Of a stretch of DNA of 64,000 nt, positions 52,142 through 53,288 are shown in pieces. The stretch comes from an uncultured Crocinitomix sp. (GTDB lineage: Bacteria > Bacteroidota > Bacteroidia > Flavobacteriales_D > Crocinitomicaceae). Position 1 is the first letter of the stretch. Every line of letters starts with the position of its first letter. The stretch spans positions 1 to 64,000 of the forward strand of contig CAJQHR010000014.1 of the NCBI GenBank assembly GCA_905478225.1, in the 5' to 3' direction. Under the pieces are notes generated by a model, which was not told the origin of the DNA, did no database searches, and saw only the letters and a program-made list of their open reading frames with translations. The translations under genes and the position numbers were made by a program.

Positions 52142-52918
52142 TTACTCCCCTTTAAACTCAGGCTTTCTCTTCTCTAAAAAAGCTGCCACCCCTTCGTTAT
52201 AGTCGTGCGTTTTACCTGCCATAGTCTGCAATTCTTCCTCCGTTTTTAATTGAGTGGTTAAATCACTGATCATTGATAAATTCAATGCGCGTTTGGTTAA
52301 ACCCAATCCTTTTGTTGGCATATTGGCCAGTTTTGCAGCAATTTTGTACGAATCCGCTTCAAAACTATCTGCAGACAAGCATTTATAAATCATTCCTAGA
52401 CTTTCTGCTTCTGCTGCACCAACTTTGTCTCCAAGCATCATGAGTGCAGTTGCTTTTTGAAACCCAATTAATCGAGGTAAGAAAAATGTTCCTCCTGAAT
52501 CCGGAATTAATCCGATTTTACTAAAAGCTTGAATAAAACTAGCTGCTTCCATTGCAACACAAATATCGCAAGCCAATGCAATATTAGCACCTGCACCCGC
52601 TGCTACGCCATTCACCGCTGCAACTATTGGTTTTTCAATGTTTCTAATTCGCTCAATAATCGGATTGTAATGATCTTTAACAATTGATGTCAACTCAGGT
52701 CCGTTAGGATCTGTTACTTCTCCCAAATCTTGCCCAGCACAAAAGGCTTTGCCATTTCCTATTATATAAATTGCTCGCACTTCATCATTATTCTCACATT
52801 CGTCTAAACGCGCTTGGCATTCTAATGCCATTTCCCTGTTAAAACTATTGTATACCGTTGGTCGATTAAATTGTATAATTCCAACATTATCCTTGATTTC
52901 AAATAAAATGGTGCTCAT
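52142..52918 (-). CDS. Enoyl-CoA hydratase/isomerase (PaaG-like)
   Basis: GKAFCAGQDLGEVTDP...AAVNGVAAGAGANIALACDICVA...LIPDSGGTFFLPRLIG. Confidence 0.92.
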   Translation of the reverse strand: MSTILFEIKDNVGIIQFNRPTVYNSFNREMALECQARLDECENNDEVRAIYIIGNGKAFCAGQDLGEVTDPNGPELTSIVKDHYNPIIERIRNIEKPIVAAVNGVAAGAGANIALACDICVAMEAASFIQAFSKIGLIPDSGGTFFLPRLIGFQKATALMMLGDKVGAAEAESLGMIYKCLSADSFEADSYKIAAKLANMPTKGLGLTKRALNLSMISDLTTQLKTEEELQTMAGKTHDYNEGVAAFLEKRKPEFKGE

Positions 52919-52981
52919 AATTAAATTTTTCCTAAAATTAATTAATCCAAATTTTTAAATGGCATAAGTTTTAAACTATTT

Positions 52982-53145
52982 AGTGCCTGGTCGGAAATAC
53001 AGCAAAATCAAAATCGCATCTTTTAAGTTTATTTTCATTTTTTTCTTTTTGTCTGATGCTTAGGCATCTCCTATAGAAAGGAAATAAAACTAATTCTTAA
53101 AAGAGACTCGATTTATGAAAATTCGTCTATTTCCGACCACACACT
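52982..53145. mobile_element. Putative MITE / non-autonomous palindromic element
   Basis: Left end AGTGCCTGGTCGGAAATA (52982-52999); right end TATTTCCGACCACACACT (53128-53145), inverse AGTGTGTGGTCGGAAATA (16/18 identical). Inner arms also pair (AAATCG..TTTTAAG / CTTAAAAG..CGATTT). Flanked by ATTT on both sides. Confidence 0.6.
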
Positions 53146-53204
53146 ATTTAAGCATTCATTAAAATGGCTGTTTTTTACTAATTTTGAATCTAGAAATTTA
53201 CTTT

Positions 53205-53288
53205 ATGAAAAGAATCATTTTTATTACAGGAGCGACAGCAAGCATAGCGAAGAAAAGAAGAATATGTAAAGAATTTCGCATGACTTGA
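53205..53288 (+). pseudogene. N-terminal remnant of a short-chain dehydrogenase/reductase
   Basis: MKRIIFITGATASIAKKRRICKEFRMT*; MKRIxFITGAT is the SDR Rossmann beta1/glycine motif (TGxxxGIG, here decayed). Confidence 0.5.

Follow-up and report, generated by a model that had tools for sequence, protein, structure and literature searches.

The window analysed here, a 64,000-nucleotide stretch of DNA from an uncultured Crocinitomix, raises a question just upstream of its paaG-like gene: What is the long palindrome that lies about 63 bp before the start codon (position 52918, minus strand), and how did it get there? A promoter scan gave nothing convincing and no terminator was found. The initial annotation had offered two answers, a structured RNA and a MITE or other non-autonomous insertion element, the latter of which is borne out by a related genome with the site empty, dispersed copies with their own target repeats at each site, identical copies in Aquimarina, and a patchy distribution. 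We consider it very probable that the palindrome is one old copy of a hairpin-type MITE, non-autonomous and mobilised in trans. Beside it, positions 53206–53270 hold a remnant of the start of an SDR gene, ATGAAAAGAATCATTTTTATTACAGGAGCGACAGC; the same SDR start lies divergent to paaG in another genome of the genus (G006), and from comparison of the two sequences the lineage of the window seems to have lost its SDR neighbour by deletion.

Bounds and fold of the element

The 18-bp ends first described, AGTGCCTGGTCGGAAATA and (inverted) AGTGTGTGGTCGGAAATA, were found again in the window with a match at 16 of 18 positions, as were the inward pairing, in which inner arms AAATCG/TTTTAAG pair, and the apical hairpin GATGC-TTAG-GCATC (53055–53068), which is exact as noted and kept across genera. 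The palindrome of 164 bp (52982–53145) is present, while its bounds have to be moved outward: the better unit comprises 166 bp (52981–53146), has the family ends TAGTG...CACTA and lies on the minus strand in family orientation, that is with the AGACGA end first. Its left terminal inverted repeat, TAGTGCCTGGTCGGAAATA (52981–52999, plus strand), has the family consensus TAGTGYYTGGTCGGAAAYA and its right one, TAGTGTGTGGTCGGAAATA (53128–53146, minus strand), emerges from comparison of the ends; terminal inverted repeats of this kind, which characterise MITEs, are found in the window copy and in its relatives. Further inward lie the left arm AAATCG-catc-TTTTAAG (53011–53027, plus strand), belonging to covarying helix 2, and the right arm, the reverse complement of which reads AAATCG-agtctc-TTTTAAG (53096–53114, minus strand), as recognised by pairing and covariation. 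With RNA parameters, positions 52978–53149 fold at −52.3 kcal/mol, against −24.3 ± 3.65 kcal/mol in dinucleotide shuffles (z = −7.7; 0 of 200 shuffles as good), with pairing from end to end; the folding check proposed at the outset has returned a strong fold. Family model R1 recovers the window copy with E = 1.6e-30, this copy being among the model's own 37 training sequences. As to the 4-bp duplication ATTT claimed outside both ends, the flanking repeat is real and its size is different, since ATTT forms the core of a 6-bp TATTTA obeying the family rule TANNTA. The left TATTTA (52977–52982), present as a single copy at the empty site of G006, overlaps the conserved element end with its last TA, and the right one (53145–53150) does so with its first TA.

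Empty sites, target repeats, and dispersed copies

The decisive evidence for mobility comes from G006, the paaG-like ortholog of which has 94% amino acid identity to that of the window. The region upstream of this ortholog lacks the element and has one target copy (TAAATA on the minus strand): the site GAATTGATAAATACTTTAAAACTTATGCC of G006 stands against GAATGCTTAAATA-element-TAAATAGTTTAAAACTTATGCC on the minus strand of the window, which reads TAAATA-element-TAAATA. The alignment of occupied and empty sites that had been recommended is hence positive, with an empty allele and a single target; the region upstream of the paaG-like ortholog in a second genome, G001, is also without the element. 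Throughout the family the flanks are TANNTA on both sides with the NN matching within each site, a target-site duplication specific to each insertion as MITEs have it. Forty of 62 flank pairs are identical at six of six positions, and matching TANNTA pairs also accompany copies found by similarity or by the model instead of the end pattern. The two ends of TANNTA are symmetric and the element itself also ends in TA, so that duplications of 2, 4, or 6 bp would all be compatible with the filled sites, from which the true register cannot be fixed. The TA adjacent to the element is nearly constant and the outer TA more variable, a pattern that would fit an element carrying its own TA in a set of flanks partly gathered with a TA-containing pattern. 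The family consists of a discrete unit of about 165 bp with TAGTGYYTGGTCGGAAAYA inverted ends, inserted at TANNTA with target duplication.

The search of the genome and its relatives suggested by the initial annotation uncovered many dispersed relatives at unrelated sites, in genomes of marine Flavobacteriales. At least 113 stretches with the end pattern were retrieved in a scan of 85,000 GTDB species genomes, and among the 80 matches listed all come from Flavobacteriales or broader Bacteroidetes MAGs or bins, with Crocinitomix, Brumimicrobium, Aquimarina, Maribacter, Flavivirga, and unclassified relatives as hosts; the host range may be wider than this. The distribution is patchy, 8 of 180 genomes of the order (completeness of at least 95%) bearing the family, with many copies where it is present (at least 16 each in the related genomes G001 and G101); multiple dispersed copies and empty alleles are again what is seen with MITEs. 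No copies occur in plasmid or phage records, and a single end match in a viral contig, located within coding sequence, looks like chance. Nearly all copies with enough flank (53 of 54) are intergenic, though about 79% of those loci is coding, and the median distance from a copy to the edge of an ORF is 34 bp. In one Aquimarina genome three copies are 100% identical at different sites with unrelated flanks, and hence the family has been recently mobile there. No other copy compared exceeds 88% identity to the window copy, which therefore looks old. In the genome of the window the family is probably inactive: besides this copy, intact though mutated, there are a degenerate one on contig C18 and single ends on contigs C4 and C10.

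The conserved fold and the presumed mobilising enzyme

For a plain MITE the inner sequence is dispensable. Against a reading as simple as this, the length of about 165 bp (the modal length being 165 bp), the inner motifs, and the pairing persist from genus to genus, suggesting that a further constraint acts on the element. In 37 diverse copies, 96.4% of cells are paired and 83 are changed on both sides, versus 24 in shuffles (0 of 500); 12 of 29 pairs have changes on both sides, every shuffle falls below the observed covariation score, and sliding the pairing partner out of register destroys the covariation. Moreover, the inner ends are unequal yet kept across genera, with AGACGA on one side and GCTGTATTTCC on the other, and the core is conserved (GATGCCTWAGCATC). 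From the constant length, the conserved core, and the covariation, we think that the inner part of the element matters. For ERIC and Correia repeats, effects on the processing or stability of mRNA from adjoining genes have been reported, and it is possible, if doubtful, that the folded form of this mobile repeat is itself selected, either as RNA with such effects or as single-stranded DNA or a cruciform in transposition. The covariation and the unequal inner ends argue for selection of the fold, and the 30 G-T against 16 A-C cells counted on one strand (cells that are not independent) give a weak hint at a preferred strand. Conversely, arm-to-arm repair within a palindrome could copy changes without selection, one control for covariation leaves the relatedness among copies in (either process can contribute to the covariation), and the window copy is found at this site in only one genome. 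Distinctly less probable is the broader proposal of order-wide small mobile elements that would need the whole folded hairpin, for transposition as folded DNA or as RNA beside genes, and would be moved by an enzyme of an IS family outside those tested.

That the palindrome is immobile and serves the paaG-like gene as a structured RNA or regulatory element seems to us very unlikely. The strong fold and the position 63 bp upstream of the start could be adduced for it, but the empty site of G006 contradicts it, as does the absence of the element upstream of the ortholog in G001, relatives lie at unrelated sites, and Rfam has no match above gathering score, just a sub-threshold one of MIR2670 to the long AT-rich hairpin. 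The initial annotation had tied this reading to a single copy, held at the same site in distant relatives with covarying stems; the stems do covary, while neither the single copy nor the same site is found, and so the structure is conserved, yet the element is mobile. Just as improbable is a REP/BIME-like palindrome (20–40 bp, with a linked Y1 transposase and no target duplication) moved by a RAYT/Y1 (HUH) transposase, since the unit measures 165 bp and its ends pair, each insertion is flanked by a matching repeat specific to that site whereas HUH/Y1 transposition is not known to generate target duplications, and the one copy of G001 that adjoins a Y1_Tnp-like gene splits this gene at a normal TANNTA-type site, the frame being restored through TIIGWTDVFTRKRNRD when the element and one target copy are removed, so that the gene is a target.

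For the trans-mobilised MITE that we favour, a transposase supplied in trans, most likely of DDE type, would recognise the ends of the element, symmetric cutting about the centre of TANNTA would leave the repeat, and copies would require the ends only, perhaps the folded inner part too. Against this reading, the search among end pairs and among PF01609, IS630, IS982, and IS1595 loci brought up no autonomous element with such ends. The early remark that no parent transposase is visible holds for the window and for the related genomes tested: no copy contains a transposase ORF, shortness without an own transposase being a further trait of MITEs; long end pairs (197–2600 bp apart) enclose no transposase; PF01609 and IS1595 loci of the bearing genomes have no matching ends; and both DDE_3/IS630 and DDE_Tnp_1_3/IS982 are absent from four bearing genomes. 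MITEs derived from IS630/mariner combine a TA-only duplication with a DDE_3 transposase, and such a derivation was rejected given that the NN between the TAs is also common to both flanks and that the same four genomes have no DDE_3. Candidate parent elements were likewise discarded: the 1210-bp end pair L190:4233–5442 holds a gene for a DNA/RNA non-specific endonuclease (PF01223) and is probably two separate ends, its flanks not matching; L315 (1111 bp) and the 374–517-bp forms of G101 are copies split by nested insertions; and single-end loci lead into ordinary genes.

Relation to known mobile repeats

Hairpin MITEs have been described well mainly in proteobacteria, cyanobacteria, and pneumococcus, and we found no description of the present Flavobacteriales family in the literature; by its design, it would be a previously unnamed MITE family among small mobile repeats of the ERIC, Correia, and YPAL type. 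ERIC/IRU (RU-1) of enterobacteria, a 127-bp repeat, is similarly a short, non-coding mobile hairpin with TA termini, target duplication, intergenic position, and copy number varying with lineage (PMC2229807, PMC10969869), but differs in host order, sequence, length, and target rule (here TANNTA). Correia/NEMIS (CREE) of Neisseria, with reported RNase III and promoter effects, is another hairpin MITE with TA ends and insertion near genes (PMC10969869); its ends do not match, and its host and length are different. YPAL/RU-2 of Yersinia resembles it as a palindromic repeat of about 168 bp with empty and filled sites and a conserved fold, but its termini bear no TA motifs, its sequence is not rich in AT, and it makes variable duplications of 3–26 bp (PMC2229807, PMC2267715). 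MITECca01 of Cardinium, from the same phylum of Bacteroidota, is also mostly intergenic and multi-copy, but has 240 bp and a resident parent, ISCca4 of the IS982 family (PMC9769881), whereas no IS982-type transposase is present in four genomes bearing our family. Flavobacteriales (Crocinitomix, Brumimicrobium, Aquimarina, Maribacter, and others) gain a hairpin MITE family of comparable design, in which the strict TANNTA rule, the empty site, and the recent copies open both the function of the fold and the identity of the missing transposase to testing. For annotation, it is useful to recognise copies in gene leaders that could otherwise pass for structured RNAs.

Variant forms were also noticed. 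Tiny derivatives consist of a 22-bp hairpin, GTGTCTGGTCGGAAATAGACAC, at L141:5222–5255 and also at L134, L157, and L182 (GGCAC for GACAC in L182), flanked by TAATTA or TAGTTA pairs (TAATCA on one side in L134); a deletion that spans the palindrome from one short AGAC/AGGC repeat to the other would explain them, yet several near-identical ones are present in one Aquimarina genome. Three loci of G101 (L078, L092, and L098) have versions of 374–517 bp with a nested second repeat, TTTAAATGCCTATCCG...GGTAAAGTT, itself bearing long palindromes. Copies of G035 (L015, L030, and L033) have the same core too, at about 90% identity to the G101 copies, with other ends, TAGTTTGAATTTGGAAACA, and inside a larger repeat that they share; they are possibly a subfamily with changed ends. 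Further G101 copies, such as L292–L294, form a subfamily in which the two ends are unequal, GTGTCTGGACGG and GTGGTTGGTCGG, and consistently paired.
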